Shown here one piece after another: positions 23,645 through 62,117 of a stretch of 64,000 nucleotides of DNA; within the stretch, counting starts at the first letter, position 1; each line of letters starts with the position of its first letter. Location of the stretch: assembly GCA_021773015.1 (NCBI GenBank), contig JAJFKW010000001.1, positions 2,463,305 to 2,527,304 of the forward strand, read 5' to 3'. The notes beneath the pieces are model-generated. The model was not told where the DNA came from. It ran no database searches and saw only the letters and a program-made list of their open reading frames with translations. Both the position numbers and the translations under genes were made by a program. This DNA is from Woeseia sp. (lineage in GTDB: Bacteria > Pseudomonadota > Gammaproteobacteria > Steroidobacterales > Woeseiaceae).

Positions 23645-24574
23645 TTATTGGCTCAGAAGAGACTTGGCAGATTTTTTCAGAAATCCACCGGCTTTCTCAC
23701 CCTCAAGGACTTTAGGATCGATTTCCTCAAACGGGGCCGCGCCGCTTACTGCGGTCCCGTGATCGCCACCGCCGGGAAAGGAAATCGAGCGCGCTGACTT
23801 CGGTCCGTTTTTGGATTCGATCCCGTTACGAATTGATCCAGCAAACTTGCCATCTAGCGCGGGATCCATCTGAATAAGCACAAAACCACCGGACTTTGTG
23901 ATTTGTCCGGCATGCACCGCTGACATGCAAACATAACCGTTCAATGGATAACTATCCGTTCCGTATACACGGCGACCGGCAAGGCTGCTTGGTGCGCTTG
24001 GACAGTTGAAGACAAAACGCTGACCGGTCAAGCGAATGTTGGCGAGCCCGGATTGTGAAAACTTGTCTTTCCATTTCAAGTGCGGCGCCCACTCGCGTTG
24101 CAAACTATCCAACTCGCCGCGGGTGGCATCGGTCAAGAACATGATGCTCAGCCCGGTTCCGGGAAAGTCACTAGATTCAACATCGTTGCGGATGCTGCCG
24201 AGGTATTCACTGACGCCTGGGTTTAGTTGCAACGTAATCGGCCCGCCATCAACACCAACTGCGCCGGCATGCTGTGCTGCAACGCAAATTGGCGCGCTCG
24301 CCGGGTACACATCGGTTCCGTAAATTCCCTGGTCCTTGTCTCTAACGGTTTTAGCTGGGCAGTTAAACTCGAAGCGTTGACCGATGTACTTTTCCTTGTC
24401 CACCTGGAAATGGTGCAGACTTGTTGTTCTCGACAATTCCTTGCCGAAGTCACCTGTCGTACCTACGGCATTGGCGGTTGGCGCTAATGAGTAGGCGACG
24501 ACAAATACGGACATTAGTAGGCGATAGATCGCTTGTTGGGTTGGCTTTAACGCCAATTGGCTCTTGCGGGACAT
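23645..24574 (-). CDS. Exported protein with two LCCL domains
   Basis: 309 residues. An N-terminal hydrophobic segment (LLMSVFVVAYSLAPTANA-V, ~18-36) is a signal peptide. Two LCCL domains: ~60-140 (FNCPA, IYGTDVYPASAPICVAAQHAG, GSIRNDVES) and ~205-285 (FNCPSA, VYGTDSYPLNGYVCMSAVHAG, GSIRNGIES). Both keep the YGTD-Y-x(6)-C-x-A-A/S-x-HAG core and the conserved Cys pair. LCCL modules are extracellular carbohydrate- or lipid-binding folds. It starts 20 bp after the truncated-haemoglobin stop, so the two form an operon. Confidence 0.85.
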   Translation of the reverse strand: MSRKSQLALKPTQQAIYRLLMSVFVVAYSLAPTANAVGTTGDFGKELSRTTSLHHFQVDKEKYIGQRFEFNCPAKTVRDKDQGIYGTDVYPASAPICVAAQHAGAVGVDGGPITLQLNPGVSEYLGSIRNDVESSDFPGTGLSIMFLTDATRGELDSLQREWAPHLKWKDKFSQSGLANIRLTGQRFVFNCPSAPSSLAGRRVYGTDSYPLNGYVCMSAVHAGQITKSGGFVLIQMDPALDGKFAGSIRNGIESKNGPKSARSISFPGGGDHGTAVSGAAPFEEIDPKVLEGEKAGGFLKKSAKSLLSQ

Positions 24575-25500: not shown

Positions 25501-26409
25501 TTAGATCGACAGACCCTTCAAACGTTGCTGACCAAGATGGTCGCGAAATGCACTCAGCGATGCCACATTACCGATTGCTCGATGAAACTTGCGCGTAAGG
25601 TGTCGGATCTCGTCATACCAACCGGCGGAGTGAGTTTGTAACCGTTTAATAATTGGTGGCGTTCGTGGGTCAATTTGACCGCGCTTGTCTGCTCGAAACT
25701 GACGGCCCGTCCAGTCCACCAGCAGAAGGTAATCTTGCTTGGTAATCGGTAGTGAAAATACATTGTTGGGATTTCCGATCATCGGTGCGAGTTTTTCGTC
25801 TCGATTGTCGATGCGGGCCTTTATCGAGGTATGTAACGAAGTTTCTGGGGTCTCGGCTGTGTTGGCTCTAATAGGGTTTAGATCCACATAGGCCATACAT
25901 TTCAATACCGACTGGTCATCTAGCAGTGCTTGAGATCTAAAGCGGCCCTCCCAGAATCGGCCTTTACAGCCATCTTCCTGGTTTGCACGTCTGGCCAGCG
26001 GCTCGTTGATGCTTCTCATGAACCAGCTGATGCTACCCAGGCGTGCGCGCCATTTGTCGATCAACGACCTTTGGCGAGCGGCATCGAGTTGCTCAAACCA
26101 CTCCGGCAAGCGGTAAAGTCGGGTCCAACGTTCGATGACTTCGTCATCGGTCCAGGCGCACAGCGATTTACTGTCGATATGCAGCACGACATGGTAATGA
26201 TTGCTCATCACCGTGTAGGCACACAGATCAATGGCGAAGATCTCGGTGAGTTCGATCAGTCTGTTCTCAACCCACTGTCGGCGATGTTCAAAGTTGTAGC
26301 CGGTTAGCGCATCTTTGCCACAGAGGAAGGCACGACGGACGCAACGGCTTACGCAGTGGTAATAGGGCGTCTGCTCTGGATCGATCAATACGCTGCGTGG
26401 CAATGTCAT
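25501..26409 (-). CDS. REP-associated tyrosine transposase (RAYT, Y1/HUH family)
   Basis: 302 residues. Begins PRSVLIDPEQTPYYHCVSRCVRRAFLC, a typical RAYT start. HUH metal motif in TVMSNHYHVVLHI (~66-78). The catalytic Tyr lies in MAYVDLNPIRAN, and GRFWEGRFRSQALLD precedes it. Y1 transposases nick single-stranded DNA at REP hairpins. The gene is bracketed by repeats carrying GGACACCCA in inverted orientation. Its start codon lies within the first copy of a 108-bp tandem duplication, so its own 5' end and promoter are duplicated upstream. Confidence 0.9.
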   Translation of the reverse strand: MTLPRSVLIDPEQTPYYHCVSRCVRRAFLCGKDALTGYNFEHRRQWVENRLIELTEIFAIDLCAYTVMSNHYHVVLHIDSKSLCAWTDDEVIERWTRLYRLPEWFEQLDAARQRSLIDKWRARLGSISWFMRSINEPLARRANQEDGCKGRFWEGRFRSQALLDDQSVLKCMAYVDLNPIRANTAETPETSLHTSIKARIDNRDEKLAPMIGNPNNVFSLPITKQDYLLLVDWTGRQFRADKRGQIDPRTPPIIKRLQTHSAGWYDEIRHLTRKFHRAIGNVASLSAFRDHLGQQRLKGLSI

Positions 26410-26645
26410 GCCACACAGTTAATCGCAACATCAACAAGACTGCAGTCTGCGTTTTTCCACAATACCGACGGATTATCGTGGGTGTCCTGATGAATACTCC
26501 CTGCGTGGCAATGTCATGCCACACAGTTAATCGCAACATCAACAAGACTGCAGTCTGCGTTTTTCCGCAATACCACCGGTTTATCGTGGGTGTCCTGATG
26601 AATACTCTCCGCCGGATTATCGTGGGTGTCCTGATGAATACTCTC
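26393..26645 (-). repeat. Tandem 108-bp duplication plus truncated third copy
   Basis: Copy 1 is 26393-26500, copy 2 is 26501-26610 (differing at a few positions), and a third partial copy is 26611-26645. Each unit begins with the RAYT start region (ctgcgtggcaatgtcatgcc), includes actgcagtctgcgtttttcc, and ends with a REP-like ttatcgtgggtgtcctgatg. Copy 1 overlaps the transposase start codon. Probably generated by misfired RAYT activity or replication slippage. Confidence 0.85.
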
Positions 26646-26683
26646 TGATGAATCGTTGCCGAAAGGGGCCTTTTGATTTTGGC

Positions 26684-26757: not shown

Positions 26758-27354
26758 TTATGTCGGCAGTGTGTATTTGACGTTGCCCCTCGTGACGACA
26801 ATCAGTTTTCTCTTGCACAGCTCGTCGACAAGCGCTGACAAATCTGCGTCGCTTAGGGATTCGGAGACGAGATTGCTAATCGTGTTCTGGAGCGTTTTGA
26901 CTTTTCTGGGTCTTGACTGGCCACGCCCAACGAGGTTCTTCACAATCGCGTCGATCTTGTCGTCCTTTTTAGCTTGTTTCGGTATCCGCAAGTTCGGTAT
27001 CTCGGCCAGGTCACTTTCTCGACGGATTTGGATCTTCTTGCCCTTCAGATGGCGAATCAGCGGATCGAAACCCTTGTCCTTGCTGATCACGTGAAAGCTG
27101 CCTGCCGGATCGGCTGCCACTAGTTCGCCAATGTAGTAGGCGATATGGAAGTCCAATGCGTTCGGCCCGCTGCCGTCAATCTCAACGTATTTCGCTTTGT
27201 CTCCGAGCGTCTGCATCGCGACGGCTACGTGACGGGGCACCTTGGTTTGGTTCGCACCGATGAATACGAACACCTTGAAAGAATGAACTGCGAGAATATT
27301 TAGATTTCTTGGCTGGACATTCTCGAAGTCGATCAGGACGTAGTTGGTTGTCAA
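26758..27354 (-). CDS. PIN-like (NYN-type) domain protein
   Basis: 198 residues. N-terminal VLIDFENVQPRNL has the first catalytic Asp. VFVFIGANQTKVP, SGPNALDFHIAYYIGELVAA and FHVISKDKGFDPLIRHLK supply further conserved Asp residues of the PIN/NYN nuclease fold. Such proteins cleave RNA or act in RNA processing or defence. Residues ~125-198 form a separate helical tail (possible winged helix: LSALVDELCKRKLIVVTRGNVKYTL). Monocistronic. Confidence 0.75.
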   Translation of the reverse strand: MTTNYVLIDFENVQPRNLNILAVHSFKVFVFIGANQTKVPRHVAVAMQTLGDKAKYVEIDGSGPNALDFHIAYYIGELVAADPAGSFHVISKDKGFDPLIRHLKGKKIQIRRESDLAEIPNLRIPKQAKKDDKIDAIVKNLVGRGQSRPRKVKTLQNTISNLVSESLSDADLSALVDELCKRKLIVVTRGNVKYTLPT

Positions 27355-27571
27355 AATTGTCTCCGTGAAATAGTTTGTGAAAAATGCAGGACATTCTACT
27401 ATGTTGGTAGTGCATGCAGGCCATCGGCGGTCTGTGTATTCGTGCTTCGCCGTGCGGCGAAGCTAACTGCGGTAAAGATTCTCAGAACTCCGCTACTGCG
27501 TGGGGGTCAAATTCAGGCACGGCGCCGCTCTCAGAACCAGGCAGGCACGTCATTTATCCGGAGTTCGTCGA

Positions 27572-29053
27572 GTGAAAGCGAAGCAGCGACCATACCAATA
27601 TTACGATTCCACAATCTCAATTTGCAGTACATGCCTGACTCGCGTTGACGCCAAGATTGTATTCCAGGACGGCTGTGTGTGGATGTTGAAGCGATGTCCC
27701 AAGCACGGTGCTGAACGTGTTCTGATGGCGGATGATATCGCCTATTACAAGTTGGCCAGAGAAACGTTCATCAAGACACCGGAACAGGTCATCACCCCCA
27801 ATACGCCGGTTCGCTATGGGTGCCCGTATGACTGCGGAATTTGTCCGGACCATGAGCAACACGGCTGTACGCTGCTGATCGAGGTTACGGACAACTGTAA
27901 CTTGCGGTGTCCCACCTGTTACGCCGGAAGCGGGCCGGAACGGCAGACACACCGCAGTTTAGAACAGATTGAGCGCATGTTGGATCGAGCGGTTGCGAAT
28001 GAAGGCGAGCCTTCGATCATCCAGATTTCGGGGGGTGAGCCGACCGTACACCCGCAGTTTTTTGAGATTCTCAAACTGGCACGGCAGCGACCCATCGGAC
28101 ACCTCATGGTGAACACAAATGGGATACGCATCGCGAATGAGCCGGGATTCGCGGAACGCCTCGCGGAGTTCACTCCCGGCCTGGAAATCTACCTGCAATT
28201 CGATTCCTTTCGTCCTGAAGTATTGAAAGCGCTGAGAGCTTCAGATCTCAGAAGTACTCACACCCGTGCCATTGACCGCCTTAATGAAACCGGCATACAT
28301 ACAACGCTTGTCGCGACGATACGGCGCGGTCTTAACGACGACGAAATGGGCGAGATTATTGACTACGCGACACAGCAGCCTTGCGTGCGTGGCGTTACTT
28401 TTCAGCCCGTTCAAGCTGCGGGCCGACTCGAAGGGTACGAGTCTGGTTACAACAACGAACGAGACCGATTAACCTTGACAGAAATTCGTCGCAGAATCCT
28501 CGAGCAGTGTCCAGTGTTTGCGCCTGAAGATCTCATCCCGGTTCCGTGCCACCCGGACCATCTCGCTATGGCCTATGCGCTCAAACTCGATTCCGGCCTA
28601 GTACCACTCACCGGTCTGGTTGATCCGGAATTTCTAATCGATGCCGGTGGAGCAACTATTACTTATGAAGCGGAACCCGCCATTCGTGAGCACTTCCTTA
28701 ATCTGTTCTCAACCCATCACTCGATCACATCGCAGACTGATGCAATGAGCGATTTTCTCGATACGCTCGACCGCTCTCCCACGGAACAACTAGGCTACGC
28801 AAATATATTTCGAATATTAATTGTCGAGTTTATCGATGCTCAGGGATTTGACCTTCGCTCTATACGCAAGACCTGTGTGCACATTGTTCATCCCGACGGC
28901 AAGAGAGTTATCCCGTTTGATACCTACAACCTGTTGTATCGTGATGGACTGGAACAGCATGTTCTCGAACCACTGCGCAGTCGAGAATTCGTGCCGCTGA
29001 GCGGGCCCATATCACTCGCCCGCTACCGGGATTCTGAGAACTCATTGCCGTGA
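27572..29053 (+). CDS. Radical SAM protein, tetraether-lipid-synthase (Tes/MJ0619)-like
   Basis: GTG 27572 is chosen over an upstream start because conserved sequence begins there; 493 residues. An N-terminal rubredoxin-like CxxC (Cys18, Cys21) and CPKHG, then an extra Cys cluster YGCPYDCGICPDHEQHGC (84-99), then the radical SAM motif CNLRCPTC (109-116) and GGEPTVHP. The four-part Cys layout matches the Tes/MJ0619 family, whose archaeal member joins two lipid chains and whose bacterial relatives are linked to membrane-spanning lipids. The function here is inferred. A methyltransferase gene overlaps its stop. Confidence 0.8.
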   Translation: MKAKQRPYQYYDSTISICSTCLTRVDAKIVFQDGCVWMLKRCPKHGAERVLMADDIAYYKLARETFIKTPEQVITPNTPVRYGCPYDCGICPDHEQHGCTLLIEVTDNCNLRCPTCYAGSGPERQTHRSLEQIERMLDRAVANEGEPSIIQISGGEPTVHPQFFEILKLARQRPIGHLMVNTNGIRIANEPGFAERLAEFTPGLEIYLQFDSFRPEVLKALRASDLRSTHTRAIDRLNETGIHTTLVATIRRGLNDDEMGEIIDYATQQPCVRGVTFQPVQAAGRLEGYESGYNNERDRLTLTEIRRRILEQCPVFAPEDLIPVPCHPDHLAMAYALKLDSGLVPLTGLVDPEFLIDAGGATITYEAEPAIREHFLNLFSTHHSITSQTDAMSDFLDTLDRSPTEQLGYANIFRILIVEFIDAQGFDLRSIRKTCVHIVHPDGKRVIPFDTYNLLYRDGLEQHVLEPLRSREFVPLSGPISLARYRDSENSLP

Positions 29054-29838
29054 GCGCTGCGAATCAGATGCTCGCGAGGTGTTGCGCCGAGCTCTATGAA
29101 TTGCCAATCGTTGAGTACCTTCTGGGCCAGAGTTTTCATCCGGGTGGCACGAAATTGACGCGGCAGCTGGCGACAGCAACCCTTGTCTCGCCAAACTCGC
29201 GAGTGCTTGACGTCGCTTGTGGCAGCGGTACTTCAGCGCGCCTGCTTGCAGCGAACTTTGGCGCAGTCGTTGCAGGCTGCGATTATTCAACTACCAACAT
29301 CCAACGTGCAGAACAAGCCTCTCGCACTGCTGGCGTGAATCATAAAACGCAATTCGTGAGGGCTGACGCGGAGCAGCTACCGTTCGCTGCGGAATCCTTC
29401 GATATCACTTTTTGCGAGTGCAGCTTGTGCCTCTTCGCGGATATGAATACGGCACTTCAAGGAATTCGCCGTGTTTTGAAGCCGGGCGGCCGGATTGGCA
29501 TTTCCGATTTCTTCTTGAATGCACCCGTCCCAGACAGTCTTGACGGATTGCTAGGGAAGGTTCTTTGTGTTGCCGCCGCACAGTCAGCCGACGGCTATCG
29601 CGAGTCGTTATCTCAGGCAGGTTTCGAATACATTCGAATTCGTACGGTGAACTGGACACTGGCCGACATGATTCGGCGCATCCGTCGCCGACTCAAACTC
29701 TTGGCAACGGCGAACGTAGCGGCAAACACGAGTCTGCCTGTCGACTTTGGTGATCCTGCTGCAGTACTCGCCGATCTTGAAAATTTTATTGCGAGCGGCG
29801 GTGCCGGCTATCTCATCGCAACTGCCCGTCGGGCCTAA
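29050..29838 (+). CDS. Class I SAM-dependent methyltransferase
   Basis: 262 residues from GTG 29050, overlapping the radical SAM stop by 4 bases (GTGA), so translationally coupled. Motif I VLDVACGSGTSARLLA, acidic loop CDYS, motif post-I with RADAEQLPFAAESFDITFCECSLCLF, and VLKPGGRIGISDFFL: the UbiE/methyltransferase-11 layout. The N-terminal LYELPIVEYLLGQSFHPGG is shared with a subgroup I recall next to radical SAM genes. It probably methylates the product or a substrate of the enzyme encoded at 27572. Confidence 0.85.
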   Translation: MSAANQMLARCCAELYELPIVEYLLGQSFHPGGTKLTRQLATATLVSPNSRVLDVACGSGTSARLLAANFGAVVAGCDYSTTNIQRAEQASRTAGVNHKTQFVRADAEQLPFAAESFDITFCECSLCLFADMNTALQGIRRVLKPGGRIGISDFFLNAPVPDSLDGLLGKVLCVAAAQSADGYRESLSQAGFEYIRIRTVNWTLADMIRRIRRRLKLLATANVAANTSLPVDFGDPAAVLADLENFIASGGAGYLIATARRA

Positions 29839-29897
29839 AGGGTGGCCCATTCAATCGGAGCGCCGCGCCAACCGATAAGACGCGCTTGCTACGAGTA

Positions 29898-30211
29898 CGG
29901 CGGATCAGTTCGCGAAGCGAACTAGACAGCGAAGCTGCCCGAAGGGTGAGGATCGCCTGAGGGCGATCCGAATCAATCGAACGTGGTTCACTGCGTGTGG
30001 CTACGAACACGAAGGCCCCCTTAGTGGCGGCTTCGAGCGTTTGGCGGCAGGGGCGGACCAGCCGGCGAAGCCAGCTAGCGATGCGCAGCTACCCGAGTGT
30101 AGCGAGGGCGAGAATCGGCCAATGCCGATTCGCAGTCAATCGAACCGAGCCTGTCAGATCGATTAGCGTTTCACTTGGCAGTTGAATTCAACTGAGAGCA
30201 CGCGGATTTTC
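29898..30211. repeat. Two structured repeat blocks plus tRNA-Phe-like fragment
   Basis: Block A (~29898-29982) and block B (~30050-30146) align throughout. Each starts gcgga(t/c)cag, contains a run of short perfect hairpins (gttcgcgaagcgaac; ggatcgcctgagggcgatcc; agaatcggccaatgccgatt) and ends tcaatcgaac. Block B leads into tcgaacc, a 51-nt insert (30147-30197), then the tRNA-Phe anticodon-stem antisense gcacgcggattttc (30198-30211). No gene in the 29839-30237 interval. Confidence 0.65.
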
Positions 30212-30237
30212 GTCCGCAGCTTGCCTCGGCAATACGC

Positions 30238-32040
30238 CTACGCGGGAGGCGCATCACGAAGAACAGAGAGGAATCGGTCGCCGTAGCGATCCAATTTGGT
30301 TTGCCCGACGCCGCCGATACTCAGCAGCTCCGATGTTGTTTGCGGTCGAAACGTCAGCATCTCCTGCAGAGTCTTGTCATGAAAAATGACGTACGCAGGC
30401 ACATTTTGCTCGCTCGCCAGCGACTGCCGGCAGGTGCGTAGCGCTTCCCACAAATCTATATCTTCGTCGGCGACAACTCGATCCCGTGCCACTCGCCTCG
30501 ATGTCACGACTGACCGCTTCGGATCTTCCCGAAACTGCAATGGCGTCGTGCCTCGCAGCACGCCACGACTCGTTTCTGTCAGGACCAGCGCACCAAAACG
30601 AGCCGCATCAGACCGCAAGTAGCCAGCAACGATTAACTGGCGTGCGACCGAGCGCCAGGTGGTGGATGGTAGGTCCTTTCCTATTCCGAAAACGGAAAGC
30701 TGATCGTGCCCATTCTGCAGAACCTTGTCGGTCGCCTTTCCAAGCAGTACATCGACAAGGTGCGCGGCACCGAAGCGCTGACCTGACCGATAAACTGTCG
30801 ACAGTAGTTTCTGGGCCGCTTCTGCCCCGTCCCAGGTATTTGCCGGTGATAAGCAACCATCACAGTTGCCGCAATCGTCGTCTTGTGAATCGCCGAAATA
30901 CGCGAGCAACGGCCGACGTCGGCAGCCGGTAACCTCGCACCAACCCAACAACGCATCGAGCTTTAAGCTTTCGTAGCGCTTGTACTCCTCGCCTGCCTGG
31001 GATTCGTCGAGCATCTGCCGCAGGCGCACTACATCTTGCAGGCCGTAGACCATCCAGGCGTCAGCGGGCTCGCCGTCTCGGCCGGCTCTGCCAGTTTCCT
31101 GGTAGTAGGACTCAACACTCTTGGGCAGATCGAGATGGGCAACGAAGCGCACGTCCGGCTTATCGATACCCATTCCGAATGCGATTGTCGCGACGATCAC
31201 CAAACCGTCTTCAGCGAGAAAGCGGCGCTGGTTTTCTGCACGCACATCGGCGGCCAGTCCAGCATGATACGGCATCGCCTCGAAGCCCTGTGCGCACAAC
31301 CAACTGGCGATGCTTTCTGTCTTCTTGCGCGACAGGCAATAGACGATTCCTGCTTCGCCGCGATGCGTTTGCAGGAACTTCAACAGTTGCCCCCGTGCAT
31401 CATTTTTTACTTGCACCGCGTAACCGATATTCGGTCGGTCGAATGGCGCGACGAAAATTTCGGGTTCGTGAAGCTTAAGTCGATCAACAATTTCCTCCCG
31501 CGTCTTATCAGTTGCAGTGGCCGTTACCGCCATGCGCGGGACTCCGGGGAATACGGCACCAAGATCACCCAGTCCCAGATAGTCATGGCGAAAATCGTGG
31601 CCCCACTGGGACACACAGTGCGCTTCATCAATAGCAATGATTGATAACGGTATGTCACGTAACAATGACTTGGTGTGCTCGGTGACCAAGCGTTCCGGCG
31701 CGACATACAAGAGCTGCAACCTGCCCTGCCGAAGCTTGGTCATCACCTCCCGCCTCTCATCAGGCGACTGGCTGGAATTCAGAAACTCCGCTGCGATGCC
31801 GAGTTCACGCAGTGCCGTGACCTGATCCTGCATCAGCGCAATCAGGGGCGAGACGATGAGACCCGTTCCCTCCTTCAGCATTGCCGGAATCTGGTAGCAC
31901 AACGACTTACCACCGCCTGTCGGCATGATCACGAGGGAGTCGCGCCCCTGCAGCGTGGCCTCGATGATCGACTGCTGTTGTCCCCGGAACTCTGGATAGC
32001 CGAAGACATCTTCTAGAACTTCCTTTGGGGAAAGGCTCAT
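30238..32040 (-). CDS. recQ: ATP-dependent DNA helicase RecQ
   Basis: 600 residues from ATG 32040 ([19 protein letters not shown]), with an upstream ATG at 32067 possible. Motif 0 [10 protein letters not shown], Walker [66 protein letters not shown] Zn-binding RecQ-C domain ([23 protein letters not shown]) follows, then a winged helix and a C-terminal HRDC domain (~525-595). It unwinds recombination and stalled-fork intermediates. Full-length. Confidence 0.95.
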
Positions 32041-51027: not shown

Positions 51028-51957
51028 TTGACTGACAAGGACCCACGCGAAGAATACTTGCGTTCCGTAGAGCTAACTCGCTCGCGGATTCAATACTCCC
51101 CACCAATAGTGTTTCTTTTTGGCGGTTCGACTGAAGGAAACCCGCCTCAGTCTGTTCGCGGCCAATTGTACAATTACCTGCTGGTCAACAAGCCCTCTGT
51201 TTTCTCCTGTCTCGTGATGCCGGAGAATTTCCCAGACTGGCTCAATGATTCAGTGTATCCCGACTTGCTAACATTCGAAGAGGACCTAGCCCAAACTTCG
51301 ACGCTGGTCATTATCGCGGTTGAAAGCCCAGGGTCTATCGCGGAACTTGGTGCATTTTCCGTTAACGATGACCTTAAGAACAAAGTGGTAATTTTGATGA
51401 GTGATCATCATCACGATCAAAAATCGTTCATAACGCTTGGGCCAGTGCGGCAATTGAAAGAATTGAACGTTTACACGTTCCCCTACGATCCGCTAAACGC
51501 AGTGGCGACAATTAATCCACACTTGCCAGCGGTCGCCAACGCTTTAGAGGAAGCGATCGAGAATAGCGATAAGTCTCAACTGTTCTCAAACAAACGAGAT
51601 GGCCACGTAGCCTTGCTAATCTACGAGCTTGTCCGCATTTTTCATGTATTAAAAATCGAAGAAATCCGCGGATACCTTAAGTTACTCGCGGCACCCCGAA
51701 AGAGAAAAGTGGTTCAACGACTCTTGTTTTTGCTACAAAAACTAGACCTCGTAAAAAAGCGACGGTACCTCAACTTAGATTACTATTTTACAGAAAAGAC
51801 GGAGCAACGACTTCAGTTCACAGTATCGGCCGGCGCCGCGCCGTTTGACCCTCTTGCCGCGTCACTAGGCACAAGTGACTTCTATCGTCAGTCCGCGAAG
51901 GAAACGAACCGCGGAAAGGTAATTGAAATCATAGGAAATGATGGAGACTCGATGTGA
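51028..51957 (+). CDS. Retron effector: nucleoside-deoxyribosyltransferase-like + HTH (type II-A, Eco1-like)
   Basis: 309 residues from TTG 51028 (no other in-frame start after a nearby stop). N-terminal half: IVFLFGGSTEG, then VESPGSIAELGAF (98-110) with catalytic-type Glu106, and FITLGPVR (134-141). It closely resembles the Ec86/Eco1 retron effector (ESPGSFTELGAF, INYGPVR). The C-terminal half is helical and HTH-like (YLKLLAAPRKRKVVQRLLFLLQKLDLVKKR). Presumably a nucleotide-degrading toxin held off by msDNA-RT. Overlaps the RT start by 4 bases. Confidence 0.9.
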   Translation: MTDKDPREEYLRSVELTRSRIQYSPPIVFLFGGSTEGNPPQSVRGQLYNYLLVNKPSVFSCLVMPENFPDWLNDSVYPDLLTFEEDLAQTSTLVIIAVESPGSIAELGAFSVNDDLKNKVVILMSDHHHDQKSFITLGPVRQLKELNVYTFPYDPLNAVATINPHLPAVANALEEAIENSDKSQLFSNKRDGHVALLIYELVRIFHVLKIEEIRGYLKLLAAPRKRKVVQRLLFLLQKLDLVKKRRYLNLDYYFTEKTEQRLQFTVSAGAAPFDPLAASLGTSDFYRQSAKETNRGKVIEIIGNDGDSM

Positions 51958-52883
51958 ATATAATCGAATACCTAAGCTCCACTCTTCGAATGCCGTCATT
52001 CACTATTGAGAAATTCGTATCGACAGCCCCACATCGATATAAGGTCTACTTCATACCCAAACGCAACAATCACGGCCGTAGAAAAATTTGTCAGCCGTCC
52101 AAGGAACTTAAATCAATACAAAGAATTGTTCTCCGTAAGTTCCTCATGGACCTACCCGTGCATGATTCGGCCACCGCCTATCAATCCGGTTCCAGCATCA
52201 AGAACAATGCTAGCGAACACAGACAAAACCAATATGTCCTAAAGATGGACTTTCGTGACTTCTTTCCGTCACTGCGGCCAGCCGATTTCGCGCTCCACGT
52301 GGTCAAGCATATAGACCCACAGCTGTCTGACGACGATCAGAATTGTCTCGCGCGGTTATTTTTTTACTCTAACCGTAGCAAAGGGCAACTGGAGCTCAGC
52401 ATTGGAGCACCTACATCGCCATTCATTTCCAATACCCTAATGTGGGAGTTTGATAAGCATATATTCGATATGTGTGCAGATAGCGACGTGAAGTATACCC
52501 GCTACGCAGACGATCTTACTTTCTCAACGAATGTGAGAAATATTCTTTTTGAATTCCCGGAACGCGTTGCTAATTTACTCGGTCAACTGCAATACCCAAC
52601 ACTGACCGTAAACGAAGAAAAGACTGTTTTTCTCTCTAAGAAGGGAAACAGACACATAACTGGACTCGTAATAACGAATGAAGGCGAAGTATCAATCGGC
52701 CGCAAGAAAAAGAGAATGATTAGGTCGCTAGTTCACAAGTATCAGTTGGGGGAACTGGATGCTGAGAAACTTGCCTACTTGAAAGGCTATCTTTCGTTTA
52801 TTTCAGATGTGGAGCCACGTTTCATCCAGGCATTGATTGACAAGTATGATGCAGAAACCGTCAACTCGATTAGGAGTGGTTAG
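51954..52883 (+). CDS. Retron reverse transcriptase
   Basis: 309 residues from GTG 51954. Retron-specific NAxxH (Asn85-Ala86-Ser-Glu-His89), catalytic FxDFFPS (99-106), SIGAPTSPFISN (149-160, usually QGAPTSP), YADD (184-187), and an ITG motif (235-237) where retron RTs usually have VTG. Makes the msDNA from the upstream ncRNA. Same order as Eco1: ncRNA, effector, RT. Converges on hsdR with 23 bp between stops. Confidence 0.94.
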   Translation: MNIIEYLSSTLRMPSFTIEKFVSTAPHRYKVYFIPKRNNHGRRKICQPSKELKSIQRIVLRKFLMDLPVHDSATAYQSGSSIKNNASEHRQNQYVLKMDFRDFFPSLRPADFALHVVKHIDPQLSDDDQNCLARLFFYSNRSKGQLELSIGAPTSPFISNTLMWEFDKHIFDMCADSDVKYTRYADDLTFSTNVRNILFEFPERVANLLGQLQYPTLTVNEEKTVFLSKKGNRHITGLVITNEGEVSIGRKKKRMIRSLVHKYQLGELDAEKLAYLKGYLSFISDVEPRFIQALIDKYDAETVNSIRSG

Positions 52884-52906
52884 CTGCTCGATGGTATTGG
52901 GAACGG

Positions 52907-55900
52907 CTACGGCGCTCCGGTACGACTTCGCGGTTTCAACGAATTCAATACCTCGAATATTCCTTCGACCACGTTCTTCTTACTAGCAAAAAGTTCATCC
53001 GGGCCTCCAGCATGCAAATTGCTGAACGGTGCCTCGTACAACGCAGCCGCATCCATCACCCCCCGGGCAGTTAACTGCTCTATCACCATTTCGATGAATC
53101 GAATTTGTGGTGGAGTGAGACTGCGATCTTGAAGAAAAACTGAGAACGCCGCCTGAGCTGCCTTTCTATCCATGCCCACAAGGGTGCGCACAAAATATGC
53201 TAACGAGGGAGCACCACTTCGTTCCAACAAACCGGTCAGAAGCTGCTCCCCATCGTCTTCACCGATCTCCTGAAGGACAGCTTCCAATCCTTCGAGGTCC
53301 GTCTCAGTCAATGGTTGGTTTGTCCTTAAACGACGTACGACCAGATGATCCAAATGATTCTTCAGGTAATCCTTAACTTTTTTTTCATACTCGGCGCTAG
53401 TCATACTCGGCAAGTCGATAAGTTCTTCGTCCCTCACGCCCATGACTTCGTCTTCGAAGTTCGTGTAGACGATCTTGCGTTCCTTCTTGCCAAGGAATGG
53501 CACCAGCCCGCGCATGCGCAGCCGCAGCTCCTCGAGCCCATTCAGGTCAAGACCTTCCCAGAATCCCGTTTCCTGCAACGAGGCTAAGTAAGCGAGTTGC
53601 TCTTTCACCGCGGGGATTGCGCTCTTCTCCTCAAGCAGCATGGCGATCTCAACTATTCGCTTGCGCGGCTGTTCGAATCTCCCCAAATCTCCCTCCGCCA
53701 GCGCAAGTTGCATTCGCAGTGCCGTGAGATCGAACATTCTGGACTCGATGTCATCAGTCGGTATTTCGCTCGGCAATCCAGCGACCTCACTATGTAACTG
53801 GTTTCGGTCGTCGTCGCTTAAGTGAGTCCATGCCTTGCGCTCGCGGTAGCGGTCCACTGCCTCCAAGTGCATTCCCACGATGAAATTGTCTCGGTTCATC
53901 GCTACAACCTCATCGTGAAGGCCCTTGGTCAATGAACCGGCAAGTACACCCTCGCCATCAAGATCGGGCACTTTTTGTATGAGCGTCAACAGTTCGACAC
54001 GTGAATGGAACAGACGAGCGCCCAGCGGGACACCACCCCTGCCCTCAATACCTTCCGGGTTCTCTTTAAAGAAATCGAAGTTGAAGCAGAAGTCGAAAAC
54101 CCGGAAGTTTTGTTTGTCGCGGTCGGGCCCGAATAAATCCGGGCACAGACGCGTGCCGCGTCCGATCATCTGCCAGAACTTGATCTTCGAATACACAGGT
54201 TTGAAGAAGACCAGATTCGCGACTTCCGGCACATCGATACCTGTGTCCAGCATGTCCACCGAAATCGCGATATGCGGATCTTTATCCTTTTGCGAAAAGT
54301 CGTCGAGCAGACTCTGAGGATATCTCGCGTAAGTGTCGATGATTCGCGCAAAGTGTCCTTTGTGCTGTGGGTAGTGGAAATTGAATCGCTCTTCTATGAA
54401 CTCCGCATGCCGGTGATTACGTGCGAAGATGATCGTCTTGGCCAGCCGGTCCCCACCTTCGACTTGATGACCGTTCTCCATCAAGTGTTGCAATACTTTG
54501 TCGACCGTATCTTTGTTGAATAGCCAGTTGTTGACCGCAGCAGCATTGACCTTCTCCGGTAATTCGTCCGGATCTACGTCATCTCCCCAGTCGAGACTTT
54601 CCCATTGCTCTTTCTCTTCGTCGCTGAGCGATTCGTAGTCGATACCTTCGCGCGGAAATTTCAAATTCACCTGCTGCACACGTGGCGGCACAAGAAAGCC
54701 GTCGGCTACGGCAGTCTCCAACTCGTACGCATCAGTGGGTATGCCAGGTTTCAAATCGAAAAGCTCGTAAGTATTCCTGTCGACTTGCTCTCGCGGCGTG
54801 GCGGTAAGGCCCACTAGCAAAGAATCGAAGTAACGAAAGATCGCGCCGTATTTCTGATATACCGAACGATGCGCCTCGTCGATGATCACTAGATCAAAAT
54901 GCCCGACGCTGAAGCGTGCTTCATTGCCCCTGGTTTCGTCGATGAGCCCCATCATGGTTGGGTAGGTACAGACATAAACCCGGCCTGACTTGTCCTTTTC
55001 AGTGACCAAGTTCACCGGACTGGACTCCGGCAGGAACGCCTTGAACGCGCCCACCGCTTGGTTGACCAGTGACACACGATCGGCAAGGAATAATGCCCGC
55101 TTCACCCAACCCGCTCGCTGCAGCAAGTCGACCAGCGCTATGGCCGTGCGAGTCTTGCCGCTGCCTGTGGCCATGACCAGGAGCGCCTTGCGCCGTGACT
55201 GTGCGAATTGCTCACTAATGCTGCCAATGGCCCGCTTTTGGTAGTAACGCTCGACAATATGGTCTTTGACTTGCGCCACATCCAGTGGGTCTCGTTGAGC
55301 TCGACGGCGGATCAGATTCGCCAGCTCATCTTTCTTATAGAACCCGGCAACCGCCCGCGGCGGATAGGCGACATCATCCCACAGGCGGTTTTTGTATCCA
55401 TTGGTGTAAAAAATGATCGGACGTTGCCCATGCATGGCTTCGAGGCAATCGGCGTAGAGCTTCGCTTGCTGCTGACCCACTTCGGGGTCGACGGTGGTTT
55501 TCTTCGCCTCCACTACGGCCAGCGGGTTCCCGTCGTCGCCCCACAAGACGTAGTCCGCATAGCCGATACCTTTGTTGTTAGGCATGCCGGTCACTTCATA
55601 TTCGCGGTCACGTGGCTGATCCAGCAGCCAACCGGCACGTTGCAGTGCTAGATCGATGATCAGTTTACGGGTCTTGTCCTCGTTCCAGTCGTGCGTGTCT
55701 GGGACGGCCTCGTTCACCGCTTTGATAGCCGCCAACTGCTCGCGCAATTTCTCAAGCTCGCTCTCTACTTCCCTTCGAGCTTCTTCCTCAGCATCGAGTT
55801 TGGCCTTTAACTCCTCTAGTTTTTCTATGCTCTCAGGCGCGGCCTGAAGATCTGCCTGTGGAACAAGTGATGCATCGAAGGTCTTTCCCTTTAGGTTTTC

Positions 55901-56293
55901 TGCACCTTTTCGCAGATATGTGCGGCCAGCCCAGTAAACGACATGGTAAAGCTCCTGCAAGACATCAAGAGCTTTCTCCGGTGCCGGCATCCGATTGCCG
56001 TGCACGGCCACATTCCCCGCCTTTCGAATGTACTCCGCCTTTTGCCAGACAACGTCGGGCACAAGTTCACGGAAATGCGGTCCATTGAGATAGCCGTCCA
56101 GATTCTGTATGCGCGGAGGACTTAGATCCTTATCCACCTTATAAACACGCTTGACCAAATTCTCCAACGCGTGACGGGCATGAAAGCAGGATGCACGCGG
56201 GTCACTGTAGACGGCCCGCTCGGCAAAACTCGCACTCTCCGCTACGGGCGGAAACTCCTGCTTTAAAAATGCGAAGTTCGCGGAGGCTTCCAT
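52907..56293 (-). CDS. hsdR: Type I restriction enzyme R subunit
   Basis: Start set at ATG 56293, 5 bp after hsdS; the longer frame would run into hsdS. ~1128 residues. N-terminal DUF4145-like helical region (FHARHALENLVKRVYKVD). Endonuclease PD-(D/E)xK: GIGYADYVLW...LAVVEAKKT. SF2 motor: VMATGSGKTRTAI, VIIDEAHR, GLTATP, IGRGTRLCP. EcoEI-R-type C-terminus, consistent with a type IB system. Translocates and cuts unmodified DNA with HsdM/HsdS. Confidence 0.95.
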   Translation of the reverse strand: MEASANFAFLKQEFPPVAESASFAERAVYSDPRASCFHARHALENLVKRVYKVDKDLSPPRIQNLDGYLNGPHFRELVPDVVWQKAEYIRKAGNVAVHGNRMPAPEKALDVLQELYHVVYWAGRTYLRKGAENLKGKTFDASLVPQADLQAAPESIEKLEELKAKLDAEEEARREVESELEKLREQLAAIKAVNEAVPDTHDWNEDKTRKLIIDLALQRAGWLLDQPRDREYEVTGMPNNKGIGYADYVLWGDDGNPLAVVEAKKTTVDPEVGQQQAKLYADCLEAMHGQRPIIFYTNGYKNRLWDDVAYPPRAVAGFYKKDELANLIRRRAQRDPLDVAQVKDHIVERYYQKRAIGSISEQFAQSRRKALLVMATGSGKTRTAIALVDLLQRAGWVKRALFLADRVSLVNQAVGAFKAFLPESSPVNLVTEKDKSGRVYVCTYPTMMGLIDETRGNEARFSVGHFDLVIIDEAHRSVYQKYGAIFRYFDSLLVGLTATPREQVDRNTYELFDLKPGIPTDAYELETAVADGFLVPPRVQQVNLKFPREGIDYESLSDEEKEQWESLDWGDDVDPDELPEKVNAAAVNNWLFNKDTVDKVLQHLMENGHQVEGGDRLAKTIIFARNHRHAEFIEERFNFHYPQHKGHFARIIDTYARYPQSLLDDFSQKDKDPHIAISVDMLDTGIDVPEVANLVFFKPVYSKIKFWQMIGRGTRLCPDLFGPDRDKQNFRVFDFCFNFDFFKENPEGIEGRGGVPLGARLFHSRVELLTLIQKVPDLDGEGVLAGSLTKGLHDEVVAMNRDNFIVGMHLEAVDRYRERKAWTHLSDDDRNQLHSEVAGLPSEIPTDDIESRMFDLTALRMQLALAEGDLGRFEQPRKRIVEIAMLLEEKSAIPAVKEQLAYLASLQETGFWEGLDLNGLEELRLRMRGLVPFLGKKERKIVYTNFEDEVMGVRDEELIDLPSMTSAEYEKKVKDYLKNHLDHLVVRRLRTNQPLTETDLEGLEAVLQEIGEDDGEQLLTGLLERSGAPSLAYFVRTLVGMDRKAAQAAFSVFLQDRSLTPPQIRFIEMVIEQLTARGVMDAAALYEAPFSNLHAGGPDELFASKKNVVEGIFEVLNSLKPRSRTGAP

Positions 56294-56297
56294 CGAC

Positions 56298-57488
56298 TTA
56301 AAGGTCTCCTCGGAAGGCGCGGGATTGCAGGGAGGCGAAAAGCTTATCGAGTTCATCCAGGTGGGTACGTTGAAGAGCCTTTTGCTGATCGATCGACTCG
56401 ACGATGGTGACGAAGCGGTTTTGGAGTTCCAGGGGCGGCGTTGGCGCCGCATAGCCAGCGAACTGCTTTCGATTGAGTTTGGGGATATTCGCCCGTCTCG
56501 AAAATCCGGCGACGTAGTCTAGAAACGCTTGGCTTCGTAAGAGAAGCCAAAGGTACTCTCGGGTCATATGCTCCGGTAACGCGACAACAGGGTAGACGTC
56601 GGCACTGCAAAGGCATCGCTCCTTTACCAGCGCGACCTTGTTCAAGTAGGGCCGAATCTTCGAATAAAGTATTTCTCCAGGACTGCAGAGAAACTTTGAG
56701 CTAATAAGCTGATCTTCCTCGGCAGTTTGTGCAGGAAGAAGTTCTCCTGTGTCTTTTTCAATTCGATCAGGACCATAGTGAAGGAGGCCGCGATTCTGTT
56801 CTTCTCTCGGGTCGACCATCGGAGCATCGATTGAAGTGACCTCGCCCAGCGTCTTCCGCTCCCATCCCATCGGATTGGTGACGGGATCACCGAACATGTT
56901 GAGAAAGGTGGATCGGACGAGGTCGTCGAGCTGGGCGATGGATTCTCGGCGCATAGCCCGCAAGGCATCCGCCGAATCCAGAATCACCGCAATCCGCTTC
57001 TGCTCGGCGAGGGGTGGGAGGGGGATTGGGATCTTGAGAAACTCGCTATTTCGAATGTGGACCTGAGTGGTGCCAACCATCCGCCTCAAAACCTCTTTAT
57101 GGAAGACCCACGCATTAGACAGATGTGCGAGGAAACGCTTGTCCAACCTCGAATCGTCGAGCTTCAATCCGTAGGCGCCCTGCGCGAGCAGATATTGCCC
57201 TTCATCTGGCACAGGGGCCATGAACCCAAGAGTCTCACCAGTGCGGACCAGATTACGGAATGTTGCTACGATGAAGTCGGAGTCGACGACCGCATTCGGC
57301 TTGGCTGCAGCAAATGCATTCGGAACATGGGATTTCCCGTCGCGGTCGAAAACCAAGTGTGCGCCTTCACGGATTGTTCCTTTGTGAAGTACAGGAAACC
57401 CATAATCCGTAAATTCGTCACGCTTGATAGATGCACCCCCCCGTAGTTCAGAAACGCATTCACCCAACACGACCGTCGTCCAGTTCAT
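56298..57488 (-). CDS. hsdS: Type I restriction specificity subunit
   Basis: 396 residues, two target-recognition domains each followed by a conserved helix: LPPLAEQKRIAVILDSADAL ending TRD1 and PPLELQNRFVTIVESIDQQ ending TRD2. TRD2 begins WERKTLGEVTSID. The two half-sites determine the bipartite recognition sequence, which cannot be read from the protein. Overlaps hsdM by 4 bases. Confidence 0.93.
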   Translation of the reverse strand: MNWTTVVLGECVSELRGGASIKRDEFTDYGFPVLHKGTIREGAHLVFDRDGKSHVPNAFAAAKPNAVVDSDFIVATFRNLVRTGETLGFMAPVPDEGQYLLAQGAYGLKLDDSRLDKRFLAHLSNAWVFHKEVLRRMVGTTQVHIRNSEFLKIPIPLPPLAEQKRIAVILDSADALRAMRRESIAQLDDLVRSTFLNMFGDPVTNPMGWERKTLGEVTSIDAPMVDPREEQNRGLLHYGPDRIEKDTGELLPAQTAEEDQLISSKFLCSPGEILYSKIRPYLNKVALVKERCLCSADVYPVVALPEHMTREYLWLLLRSQAFLDYVAGFSRRANIPKLNRKQFAGYAAPTPPLELQNRFVTIVESIDQQKALQRTHLDELDKLFASLQSRAFRGDL

Positions 57489-58963
57489 CCCAACAGTCCT
57501 TCCAACTCCGCACGCCCCTTCGCAATTTCCTCGTCCAGCGTCGCCAGCCGCTCTAGGATCATTTTCGGTGGGTCGTATTCGACCGCTTCGTATTCCACTT
57601 CCTTGTAGCGGTTGATGGAGAGATCGTAGTCGTTGTCCGCAATCTCAGACTTCGGCACGAGAAAACTTTGGTCGGTTCGAGCTCGTTCGCCTTCAGTAGC
57701 GCGTTTCTGCCAACGGGCGAGGATGTCATTGAGATCGCTCTTGTCGGGCTGCGGCGTGCGTTTGTCATCAAGCGAATAGCCATCGGCCTGCATGTCGTAG
57801 AACCAGACATGGTCTGTGCCGCCAGAATTGGTCTTCGTGAACAAAAGGATGGCGGTGGAAACCCCGGCGTATGGCTTGAAAACGCCCGAAGGCATGGAGA
57901 CGATGGCGTCGAGCCTCTGATCCTCGACCAGGATTTTCCTCAAGGTCTTGTGCGCCTTGCTGGACCCGAATAGCACGCCGTCAGGCACGATGACAGCAGC
58001 CCGGCCACCGGACTGGAGCAGACGCAGGAATAGCGCCAGAAAGAGTAGCTCGGTCTTTTTGGTCTTTACAATTTGCTGCAGGTCCTTTGCCGTCGACTCA
58101 TAGTCTAAGCTGCCCGCAAAGGGCGGGTTCGCCAGGATGAGAGAGTATTTTTCCGCGTCGTCATCGTCGGCCTGTGCCAGCGAGTCCTTGTAACGGATAT
58201 CGGGATTTTCTACCCCGTGCAGCAGCATGTTCATGCTTCCGATTCGCAACATCGTATTATCGAAGTCGTAACCGTGGAAGGTGCCCTCATTGAATCGACG
58301 GCGGGCTGCTACGTCCTTATAGATAGAGTCGCTGTGGTGCTCGACGAGATACTCGGAAGCCGCTATCAGGAAACCCGCTGTACCGCAGGCGGGATCGCAG
58401 ATCTTGTCTTTCGGCGTGGGCGCCATCATGTCCACCATCAACTTAATGATATGGCGCGGCGTGCGAAACTGACCGTTCTGCCCTGCGCTTGCAATTTTGC
58501 CGAGCATGTATTCGTATAGGTCACCTTTGGTGTCCTTGTCAGCCATGTCGATGCCGTCGAGCTGATCGACCACGTTTGCCAGTACCCGGGCGGTGGGCAT
58601 CATGAAGAGTGCATCCTTCATATGATGGCTGTAAGTGGAGTCTTCCTTACCATCTCCGTTACGACCCAACGACTTGATGAACGGGAACACGGCATCGCGC
58701 ACGATCTCGAACATCGGCTCTGGGGCCGCGTCCTTGAATCGTGACCAGCGGAGATTGTCCTGATCAGCCGAAAAGATCGGTTCTTTGATCGGCGTGCCTG
58801 TGCGGGCCGCTTTGCTCTCTTTGAGCGTATGCAGTTCGTCCAGACGCTTAATGAAGAGTAGATAGGTCAGCTGTTCAATAACTGACAAGGGATTAGAGAT
58901 TCCGCCGGACCACATCGTATCCCAGATGCGATCCACTTTGGTTTTGAGGTCACCAGTGATCAT
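57485..58963 (-). CDS. hsdM: Type I DNA methyltransferase M subunit
   Basis: 492 residues. N-terminal HsdM_N (WSGGISNPLSVIEQLTYLLFIKRLDE). SAM motif I CDPACGTAGF (189-198); catalytic motif IV LANPPF (277-282), an N6-adenine methylase signature. GQFRTPRHIIKLMVDMM precedes motif I. Modifies host DNA and pairs with HsdS; stop overlaps hsdS start. Starts 45 bp downstream of the Fic gene. Confidence 0.95.
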   Translation of the reverse strand: MITGDLKTKVDRIWDTMWSGGISNPLSVIEQLTYLLFIKRLDELHTLKESKAARTGTPIKEPIFSADQDNLRWSRFKDAAPEPMFEIVRDAVFPFIKSLGRNGDGKEDSTYSHHMKDALFMMPTARVLANVVDQLDGIDMADKDTKGDLYEYMLGKIASAGQNGQFRTPRHIIKLMVDMMAPTPKDKICDPACGTAGFLIAASEYLVEHHSDSIYKDVAARRRFNEGTFHGYDFDNTMLRIGSMNMLLHGVENPDIRYKDSLAQADDDDAEKYSLILANPPFAGSLDYESTAKDLQQIVKTKKTELLFLALFLRLLQSGGRAAVIVPDGVLFGSSKAHKTLRKILVEDQRLDAIVSMPSGVFKPYAGVSTAILLFTKTNSGGTDHVWFYDMQADGYSLDDKRTPQPDKSDLNDILARWQKRATEGERARTDQSFLVPKSEIADNDYDLSINRYKEVEYEAVEYDPPKMILERLATLDEEIAKGRAELEGLLG

Positions 58964-59008
58964 GCTTTCTCATGATCGTGTTGGATACAGCCGCTAATAG
59001 TCATCTGT

Positions 59009-60145
59009 TTATAGGTCCGAGAATAATTGTATGTAGTGCGAATAGTTAAAGACCCTATTCCTCGAATTGCCTGTTGCTTCAGTTAACAAGCCAATTTCAA
59101 CAAGTCTATCTATCAATCGATTGGCCGCTGTGTAGCTTACGCCCAAAAGATCAGTCACCGCGTTGACCGACACAAGAGGAAATCGGAACAGCGACTCATG
59201 TACTTTCAGCGCATTGCCCGCGACCCTACCGAGTTCATCTACAATTTTTTGCCTATCGCGCTCTCGCAAGTCAACTATTGCCCTAGCAGTCTCCGTTGCT
59301 TGCTGCGACACCTCCCCGACACCACGCAAGAAGAACTTCAACCACTGTTCCCAACCTCCGTCTGTCCGGACGTTCTGTAGGTGGTCGTAGTATTCAGCTT
59401 TGTTTGCTTTTAGAAAGTGCGACAAATACAAGACTGGTTGTTGGAGAATTTCTTGCTGGCACAGCAAGAAGGTAATTAGCAATCGCCCCGTTCTGCCATT
59501 GCCGTCCAAGAAGGGATGAATGGTTTCGAATTGAGCATGCGTAAGCCCAATACGAATCAACGCGGACATGGCCTCGTCAGAATGAACGAATCTTTCGAGC
59601 TCTCCGAGCTGACCTGGGACCTCGTGGGGTGGCGGCGGCACGAATGTCGCTGTGTTGATTGTTGACCCCGCTGGCCCTATCCAATTCTGTGATTTACGAA
59701 GCTCTCCGGGTTGTAGGTTTGCTCCGCGTACCCCTTTTAAAAGCCGCTCATGAATCTCTCTAATGAGACGCGTGGAGACGGGTAAATCAGAGAGCCTACC
59801 GAGCCCGAAATTGAGAGCGGCAACGTAATTGGAAACCTCCTTTACGTCGACGGGTCGGTCGGGATCAAATATTTGCGCCTCGGCGCGTAGCAAGTCATTT
59901 AGTGAGCTTTGAGTGCCCTCTATTTGGCTCGACAGAACAGCCTCTTTTCGTACGTACATCAATACGAAAAGATCTGGGTCTGGGAGGGTTTGAATTGACC
60001 CGTCCAGGCGACCCAATGCCCGATCCGCCCTAGAGAGCAATGTTTGGAGCTCATCGTCGATGACCAACGGCGGGTCCGGCGGGAGCGGGGCCGGCATGAA
60101 GGCCTTGTAACCATTGGGTTGCTGTTGGTAGGTCCCAGCTCTCAT
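59009..60145 (-). CDS. Fic-family protein with HTH tail
   Basis: 378 residues. Fic active site HPFLDGNGRTGR (210-221), matching HPFx(D/E)GNGRxxR. Inhibitory motif (S/T)xxxE(G/N) at 72-77 (SSQIEG), N-terminal, so class II, self-inhibited. N-terminal DUF4172-like region and C-terminal HTH (~320-365: SVNAVTDLLGVSYTAANRLIDRLVEIGLL). Would AMPylate a target when released. First gene of the Fic-HsdM-HsdS-HsdR transcript. Confidence 0.92.
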   Translation of the reverse strand: MRAGTYQQQPNGYKAFMPAPLPPDPPLVIDDELQTLLSRADRALGRLDGSIQTLPDPDLFVLMYVRKEAVLSSQIEGTQSSLNDLLRAEAQIFDPDRPVDVKEVSNYVAALNFGLGRLSDLPVSTRLIREIHERLLKGVRGANLQPGELRKSQNWIGPAGSTINTATFVPPPPHEVPGQLGELERFVHSDEAMSALIRIGLTHAQFETIHPFLDGNGRTGRLLITFLLCQQEILQQPVLYLSHFLKANKAEYYDHLQNVRTDGGWEQWLKFFLRGVGEVSQQATETARAIVDLRERDRQKIVDELGRVAGNALKVHESLFRFPLVSVNAVTDLLGVSYTAANRLIDRLVEIGLLTEATGNSRNRVFNYSHYIQLFSDL

Positions 60146-60259
60146 GTAAAGTCTCTTTACTTAGTTCTTCTGTATGTGCGGCTGCCGACAGTATAGCAGA
60201 TAATGCCCGCCTTATTAAACTTTACCGCACATAAGGAGCACCAATGTCTCCTTATGTGC
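60146..60259. promoter_or_regulatory. Operator-rich leader of Fic/RM operon
   Basis: A perfect GTAAAG-tct-CTTTAC inverted repeat touches the Fic start codon (60146-60160). Three TATGTGC elements lie upstream: 60173, an inverted copy in ccgcacata (60225-60233), and 60253. The last two form a perfect 12-bp hairpin (60227-60238/60248-60259). Candidates for autoregulation by the Fic HTH domain. Confidence 0.55.
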
Positions 60260-60471
60260 TTCTGCCGCGGATAGAGGCGGACAGGCTATTGTGACTTGGC
60301 TTCTCAGCGACGGGGGGCTCTTCGAACTGAGAGAAACAGCTGTCGACTCGTGTATTAGAGATATGGATTAGAAACACCAAACAATCTAGTTGGCGAAATT
60401 AGGTCCTCGACCCGAACTTAATTGGAGAAAACAATTGATAGAACTTCGCGATGCAAGCGCAGGTATATTCT

Positions 60472-60645
60472 AAATCTAATGCATACAGATCTAGTTGCAT
60501 TAGATTTGATAATAGTTCCCCTATTCGAACGGGAACTATTACATTATTGTTTCCCTAATCGAAAAACGATATTAGCTAAATCTGGGCTCTGCGAGAAACA
60601 GCTCGTGTCTTCACGTGTCTTCACATGAAGACACGTGAAGACACG
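60472..60645. repeat. Cluster of four perfect or near-perfect hairpins
   Basis: aaatctaatgca/tgcattagattt (60472-60507, 12 bp); taatagttccc/gggaactatta (60510-60541, 11 bp); ctaat/attag with cg (60555-60575); and a 20-bp-arm palindrome at 60604-60645. The last is built of a 10-mer CGTGTCTTCA twice, a 2-base spacer, then its complement twice. No ORF. Could be a structured RNA, replication or binding-site array upstream of the 60756 gene. Confidence 0.7.
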
Positions 60646-60755
60646 CACTTGGGATCGAACAACGCGACGTAGTTGGACGTTCATCCCGTCCCACCCGAAC
60701 TTGTCAGCCCTGACTTTAGTGATTCCATGAAAGCTCCAACGCAACGGAGCTCACC

Positions 60756-61681: not shown

Positions 61682-61967
61682 TTTACCATTGGCATTGAAT
61701 CGATTTATGGGAAATCGATTGACTAGCTCAGCTGAGTCAGTATATATATTGACCACACGTTACTTAGTAGCGAACTTAGAGCACGAAATATTGCTCGACC
61801 GGAATTTCCGGAACCCCAGTGACCTAGGTCACGACCGACGAAAAAGTCGTACCCCAGTCTCAATCAGAGACGAACTTGTCCCAGCAAAAAGCTGAGTGAC
61901 ACTTAATCAATCACTTTTTACGTTATCGAACGAATGCGTTTCGCAGTCGTTTCGAATTGGAGGTTCT
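61682..61967. other. Intergenic with palindromes
   Basis: Perfect palindromes ctcagctgag (61727-61736) and gtgacctaggtcac (61819-61832), and a tatatata run between them. Possible regulator sites ahead of the excisionase/integrase module. A 68-codon TTG ORF (61689) is not supported. Confidence 0.45.
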
Positions 61968-62114: not shown

Positions 62115-62117
62115 GAA

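Follow-up and report, generated by a model that had tools for sequence, protein, structure and literature searches.

A radical SAM gene and a methyltransferase gene overlap within the window, the whole stretch of 64,000 nucleotides of Woeseia sp. DNA analysed here. The radical SAM enzyme is related to tetraether lipid synthase (Tes, also GDGT-MAS) and is predicted to share its fold, but judged by the residues tested in its sequence it is not a Tes. The reading put forward, at a probability of roughly 0.4, is that the enzyme and its partner form a lipid-tailoring system that would not join two chains, with an Lgt-like protein or the methyltransferase as alternative finishers.

The gene pair and the kinship of its radical SAM enzyme

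The reading frame of the radical SAM gene extends upstream to a GTG at 27500. The GTG at 27572 is preferred as start because the relatives L010, L022 and L023 begin at the same residue. The TGA stop of this gene occupies 29051-29053 and the GTG start of the methyltransferase gene lies at 29050, so the four bases GTGA are common to both genes. The overlap is kept in all five Woeseiaceae-type loci with both genes (L010, L020-L023), which agrees with the original prediction of a methyltransferase starting inside the radical SAM stop codon.

Table 1. Positions of the two genes and of the residues discussed in the text
Feature	Position	Strand	Basis or remark
Radical SAM enzyme, Tes/TrsS superfamily, 493 aa, GTG start	27572..29053	+	Pfam, NCBIfam, PDB match, structure model
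Rubredoxin-type metal site C18-X2-C21-X20-C42-X2-H45	27623..27706	+	Spacing matches that of Tes C9X2C12X20C33X2H36
N-terminal auxiliary cluster motif C84-X3-C88-X2-C91 and H94	27821..27853	+	Alignment
Radical SAM cluster motif C109-X3-C113-X2-C116	27896..27919	+	Alignment
C326..D329	28547..28558	+	Identical in 76/76 clade rows
Altered C-terminal cluster region T434 C435 H437 I438...D450	28871..28921	+	Tes: C455 C456 H458 Y459...C470
Class I SAM methyltransferase, 262 aa, nearest NCBIfam model DVU_1556 family	29050..29838	+	
Methyltransferase C11-C12	29080..29085	+	Identical in 10/10 clade rows aligned
Methyltransferase C122-E-C124-X2-C127	29413..29430	+	C124 aligns with an ArsM cysteine
Methyltransferase C173	29566..29568	+	Aligns with an ArsM cysteine

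Upstream of the pair lie a PIN-domain gene recognized by Pfam and a gene that resembles a REP-associated transposase by eye, with no Pfam match, and downstream stands RecQ on the opposite strand. None of these three neighbours was found beside the pair in L010, L020, L022 or L023. A scan of 27300-30300 for promoters and terminators returned sites not above those of shuffled sequences. The transposase-like gene is adjoined by a 108-base direct repeat at 26393-26647, present in two copies at 95% with a third piece of 39 bases. Elsewhere in the window, a protein with two matches to LCCL, a domain uncommon in bacteria, is encoded at 23645-24574. The genes at 51031-63307 look like a defence island: a retron-like pair of a reverse transcriptase and an NDT-type effector matching PADLOC type II-A retron models (51031-52880) is accompanied by type I restriction-modification genes (52907-58963), a SoFic-like gene (59009-60145) and a phage integrase (62321-63307).

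Pfam recognizes an HMPTM zinc ribbon and a Radical_SAM domain in the radical SAM protein. Its best NCBIfam model is TrsS (NF045646), with 313.8 bits for a curated cut-off of 490, and the Tes model NF045702 gives 252.5 bits for a curated cut-off of 450, so that both cut-offs are missed. In a sequence search of the PDB with phmmer, the single strong match was GDGT-MAS (MJ0619, PDB 7tol/7tom; E 4.7e-63), which a profile search reached at E 1e-115. The AlphaFold model of the protein (mean pLDDT 83.6) is nearest to 7tom, with E 2.3e-39 and TM 0.77 against 3.1e-10 for the next family, and in structural comparison Z 41.8 across 410 residues against Z 19.8 for the next family. The assignment to Tes/MJ0619-like radical SAM enzymes made in the original prediction is thus borne out. 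A predicted Tes-like fold, however, by itself gives no function for the enzyme.

A search of 84,980 species genomes gave at least 542 stretches that encode relatives. The best 80 of these share 54-94% identity (best segment) with the window frame, a conservation across 80 loci that places the frame beyond chance, and belong to Pseudomonadota, Acidobacteriota, Cyanobacteriota, Bacillota, Bacteroidota, Planctomycetota, Myxococcota and other phyla. Among named relatives, Woeseiaceae MAGs come nearest (89-94% identity), which would probably place the genome in that family. At E 1e-20, five of 60 genomes contain a match, the window's own among them; four carry close orthologues (71-100%) and the fifth only paralogues of 30-38%. 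Viral contigs, scanned once with the radical SAM protein, gave no relative, and a plasmid scan matched 85 records, nine of which align across 80% or more of the query, all below 60% identity. In the available text of Zeng 2022, 456 bacterial "Tes homologs" are counted, Proteobacteria among them, and brGDGT synthesis is proposed (PMC8941075), and that of a 2025 survey reports homologues in 281 bacterial MAGs and calls their activity unconfirmed (PMC11868695). Since relatives are so widespread in bacteria, the pair loses the distinction, initially claimed for it, of being notable in a gammaproteobacterium.

Metal sites kept and altered

Residues were compared over 85 rows, namely 76 of the window's broad clade, eight outgroup rows and Tes, with near-copies kept and the identical L011 and L031 both counted. 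For GDGT-MAS, the available text of PMC9433317 describes a rubredoxin iron on C9X2C12X20C33X2H36, an N-cluster on C73/C77/C80 with a His, a SAM cluster, a C-terminal cluster carrying the labile Met439, and a bond formed between cluster sulphur and substrate carbon. The ligands of the rubredoxin site, the N-cluster and the SAM cluster are kept in all 76 clade rows; two outgroup rows (L114 and L134) are devoid of the rubredoxin site. The window enzyme also has equivalents of Tyr195, Arg210, Gln268 and Arg275 of Tes, whereas Ser271 is replaced.

The C-terminal region differs from that of Tes. The cluster cysteines of Tes are taken here as candidates from alignments, Met439 being the sole ligand named in the available text of the paper. 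Throughout the 76 clade rows, the position of C455 holds Thr, Ser or Ala, that of C470 holds Asp or Glu, and that of the catalytic Tyr459 holds Ile or Leu (I438 in the window), while C456 is a Cys in every row. Among the candidates C455, C456, C470 and C338, the window enzyme keeps only C456. All eight outgroup rows have Cys at both the 455 and 470 positions and none has Tyr at 459, so the loss of Tyr459 is not peculiar to the window clade. Because 41 of the 76 rows have Met where Tes has Met439 (the window has Val), and 32 have Cys where it has the candidate Cys338, a residual or re-liganded C-terminal cluster is possible. The proposed match of the cysteine clusters to the Tes family therefore stands for the rubredoxin site, the N-cluster and the SAM cluster, and fails for the C-terminal auxiliary cluster region.

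Partner genes

Partners, defined as same-strand genes no more than 1.5 kb from the radical SAM gene, were tallied over the 71 loci whose radical SAM frame could be read; the other nine of the 80 (L027, L032, L055, L068, L076, L079, L082, L083 and L084) were left out of this tally and of the residue count. An Lgt-like partner occurs in 45 loci, 24 of which have a small membrane protein too, and a methyltransferase in 10, six of them with a DUF547 protein, which L027, outside the tally, also shows. The two partners never occur together (0/71). Neither is found at 16 loci, of which 13 have no partner at all and three a small membrane protein alone, some of them lying at contig ends. At L090, an Lgt-like gene stands with a methyltransferase of the same blast cluster, excluded as a partner because it lies 5 kb off on the opposite strand and is devoid of the cysteines described below.

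The two Lgt-like proteins scanned (L016 and L015) match PF01790, and the Lgt-like neighbours presumably are without the usual active-site His and Asn of Lgt. Pairs of this type from other phyla encode a radical SAM enzyme about 51-62% identical to that of the window, whose partner is a methyltransferase instead. The window genome has one Lgt, on a different contig from the pair. At L015 (5610-10251, genome G029), an Lgt-like gene and an unassigned gene are followed by another Tes/TrsS-like radical SAM gene and then by two genes that are sterol-desaturase-like by eye. Among the matches listed in a literature search, judged by title and start of abstract, no paper treated an Lgt and radical SAM pair; none was found for the locus tags DVU_1554, 1556 and 1557, and a search on COG1964, IPR034474, PF23545 and HMPTM gave the GDGT-MAS paper as sole pertinent match.

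A quick tree was built from 61 of the 85 rows, near-copies being dropped, and carries a long-branch warning that includes the junction of the clade with L019. In this tree, the 13 methyltransferase rows of the window clade form one group (SH-aLRT 97) nested in a 22-row set (SH-aLRT 95) also holding six Lgt rows, and the partner label needs three changes in total. Distant TrsS-type rows (Mycolicibacterium, haloarchaea and G029) likewise pair with a methyltransferase. A methyltransferase profile scored at least 267 bits in all four methyltransferase-type genomes and in one of 28 others, where the gene lies beside a second, TrsS-type radical SAM gene (L147); the remaining hits reached at most 135 bits.

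DUF547 proteins, some of which resemble lipoproteins by eye, occur in 5/5 genomes with a radical SAM match (1e-20) against 16/55 without one (Fisher 0.0037, relatedness ignored), a linked copy being what counts in two of the five. The window genome has an unlinked DUF547 protein of the operon type on contig C2, which scores 286-362 bits against five of the nine linked DUF547 proteins, 258-264 against two of Shewanella and 79 against the L011/L031 type. DUF547 is also found with a TrsS-like radical SAM gene without zinc ribbon, beside arsenosugar-type genes, at L114 4547-6744 (Burkholderia glumae) and L134 4377-6672 (Cupriavidus).

The methyltransferase scores 143.7 bits with the DVU_1556 model (NF045667) for a cut-off of 155, and 87.1-87.9 bits with the ArsM model NF008823, far under its curated cut-off of 263. 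Its structure model (pLDDT 82.7) has AtmM, MitM, SpnF, RebM and phosphoethanolamine methyltransferases as Foldseek neighbours, and no ArsM appears among the 50 Foldseek matches listed. ArsM as nearest kin of the whole protein was rejected: the profile that ranked ArsM first contained two ArsM rows, and once these were removed the best ArsM fell to 9th. For this reason, only cysteine positions are retained as a likeness to ArsM. C11, C12, C122, C124, C127 and C173 are identical in all 10 clade methyltransferase rows, and C124 and C173 are present in 8/8 rows taking in distant partners. These two positions are Cys in two annotated ArsM and, among seven distinct PDB sequences aligned, only the arsenite methyltransferase 5evj has both equivalents. 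None of seven other ArsM-like hits of the window genome aligned has both (of the eight others listed, one has no locus). By our own position matching, we take C124 and C173 to correspond to Cys174 and Cys224 of CmArsM, which holds arsenic on Cys72/174/224 according to the available text of PMC12608789.

Proposed role and competing readings

The radical SAM enzyme probably works like Tes as far as hydrogen abstraction. The [4Fe-4S] cluster on C109/C113/C116 would cleave SAM, and an aliphatic chain lying in a tunnel like that of Tes would lose a hydrogen to the 5'-deoxyadenosyl radical, with electrons relayed by the rubredoxin iron and the N-cluster. As Tyr459 and two of the cysteines proposed for the C-terminal cluster are missing, the substrate radical would not be held on cluster sulphur to await a second chain. 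The reaction would then change a single chain, by desaturating it, rearranging it or letting it capture a small group, perhaps with the help of C326, C435, H437 and D/E450. At most of the other loci examined, the product would be finished or used by the Lgt-like membrane protein; in the window clade, the methyltransferase would take the finishing role, accompanied by a DUF547 protein whose gene is either linked or located elsewhere in the genome. The Tes fold, a predicted one, and the Lgt-like neighbours of putative activity in most of the close relatives examined make a lipid-type substrate plausible. The small membrane partners and the lipoprotein-like DUF547 proteins also fit a substrate of membrane or lipid type.

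Synthesis of organoarsenic compounds, an unlikely role, would have the methyltransferase methylate trivalent arsenic on C124/C173, with C11/C12, and the radical SAM enzyme join arsenic to a carbon radical. It is suggested by the positions that these cysteines share with two annotated ArsM, 5evj and the arsenic-binding CmArsM, by the absence of both from the other ArsM-like hits aligned in the genome, and by the distant TrsS-like radical SAM gene that adjoins arsenosugar-type genes with DUF547 in B. glumae and Cupriavidus. Pairs of ArsM with a radical SAM enzyme, ArsS or ArsL, are moreover already known (PMC8552651, available text). The window pair shares with them the two aligned cysteines and the pairing itself, but its radical SAM enzyme is of another family, its methyltransferase as a whole is not specially ArsM-like, and an Lgt replaces this methyltransferase in most relatives read. 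No arsenic resistance genes were seen near the loci: among the frames of 89 loci, no homologue of ArsC, ArsR, TIGR04282 or TIGR04283 was found (blastp 1e-5, more than half of single references), a negative that is weak because single references were used. The ArsS matches at these loci are the radical SAM genes themselves, the other matches are one ArsH-like (L093) and one TVP38/FAD-like (L018), and the window genome has no ArsS above cut-off. Arsenic is rated low because its direct support is limited to the cysteine positions.

DUF547 was also tried as an arsenic marker and rejected. The plasmid loci L114, L115 and L134 lie in or near arsenosugar-type genes, L135 has TVP38 without ArsS, and L113 adjoins a haloarchaeal radical SAM-methyltransferase pair. 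L136-L139 and L142, from the window genome and relatives, are without arsenic hits, the ArsS loci L140 and L141 of relatives are without DUF547 in the stretch read, and, by bit score, DUF547 proteins from arsenosugar loci resemble the operon type no more than stray ones do (about 80-130 bits). The link between DUF547 and arsenic is given little weight on these grounds.

It is also improbable that the pair acts, with no lipid involved, on a thiol or selenol in a redox, sulphur or selenium system, as a counterpart of TrsS and the DVU_1556 methyltransferase of other bacteria. These are the top-scoring models for the two genes, and the same pair in the same order is found in Mycolicibacterium and haloarchaea among thioredoxin-, DsrE-, glutaredoxin- or peroxiredoxin-like genes. 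However, both genes miss the curated cut-offs, the window clade is without the C-terminal cysteines that the TrsS-like outgroup rows have (8/8 at both positions), and the available text of PMC13188914 assigns no function to TrsS.

Formation of an arsenolipid or other metalloid-lipid by the clade is doubtful still. Here, the Tes-like enzyme, unable to keep the alkyl radical on a C-terminal cluster, would pass it to methylated arsenic on the methyltransferase cysteines, giving a carbon-arsenic bond at the chain end.

A true bacterial synthase of tetraether or membrane-spanning lipids, the role first suggested for the pair, agrees with the family, the predicted fold and the brGDGT proposal of Zeng 2022 for bacterial homologues, but is very improbable given the missed NF045702 cut-off, the replacement of Tyr459 and two candidate cluster cysteines in 76/76 rows, and the unconfirmed status accorded to such homologues in 2025. 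None of the observations bears on ether lipids, the other product type named in the original prediction.

The window clade bears on the use of bacterial "Tes homologues" found by blastp as possible markers of membrane-spanning lipid makers (PMC8941075; PMC11868695, available texts). With its phmmer match to GDGT-MAS, it would probably pass such survey thresholds, and Blast surveys probably count such proteins. As the clade would do so without some of the residues on which Tes depends, these should be checked before any bacterial genome is named as a source of tetraethers or brGDGT. The exchange of an Lgt-like partner and a methyltransferase for one another offers a testable lead to the product of a widespread enzyme family.
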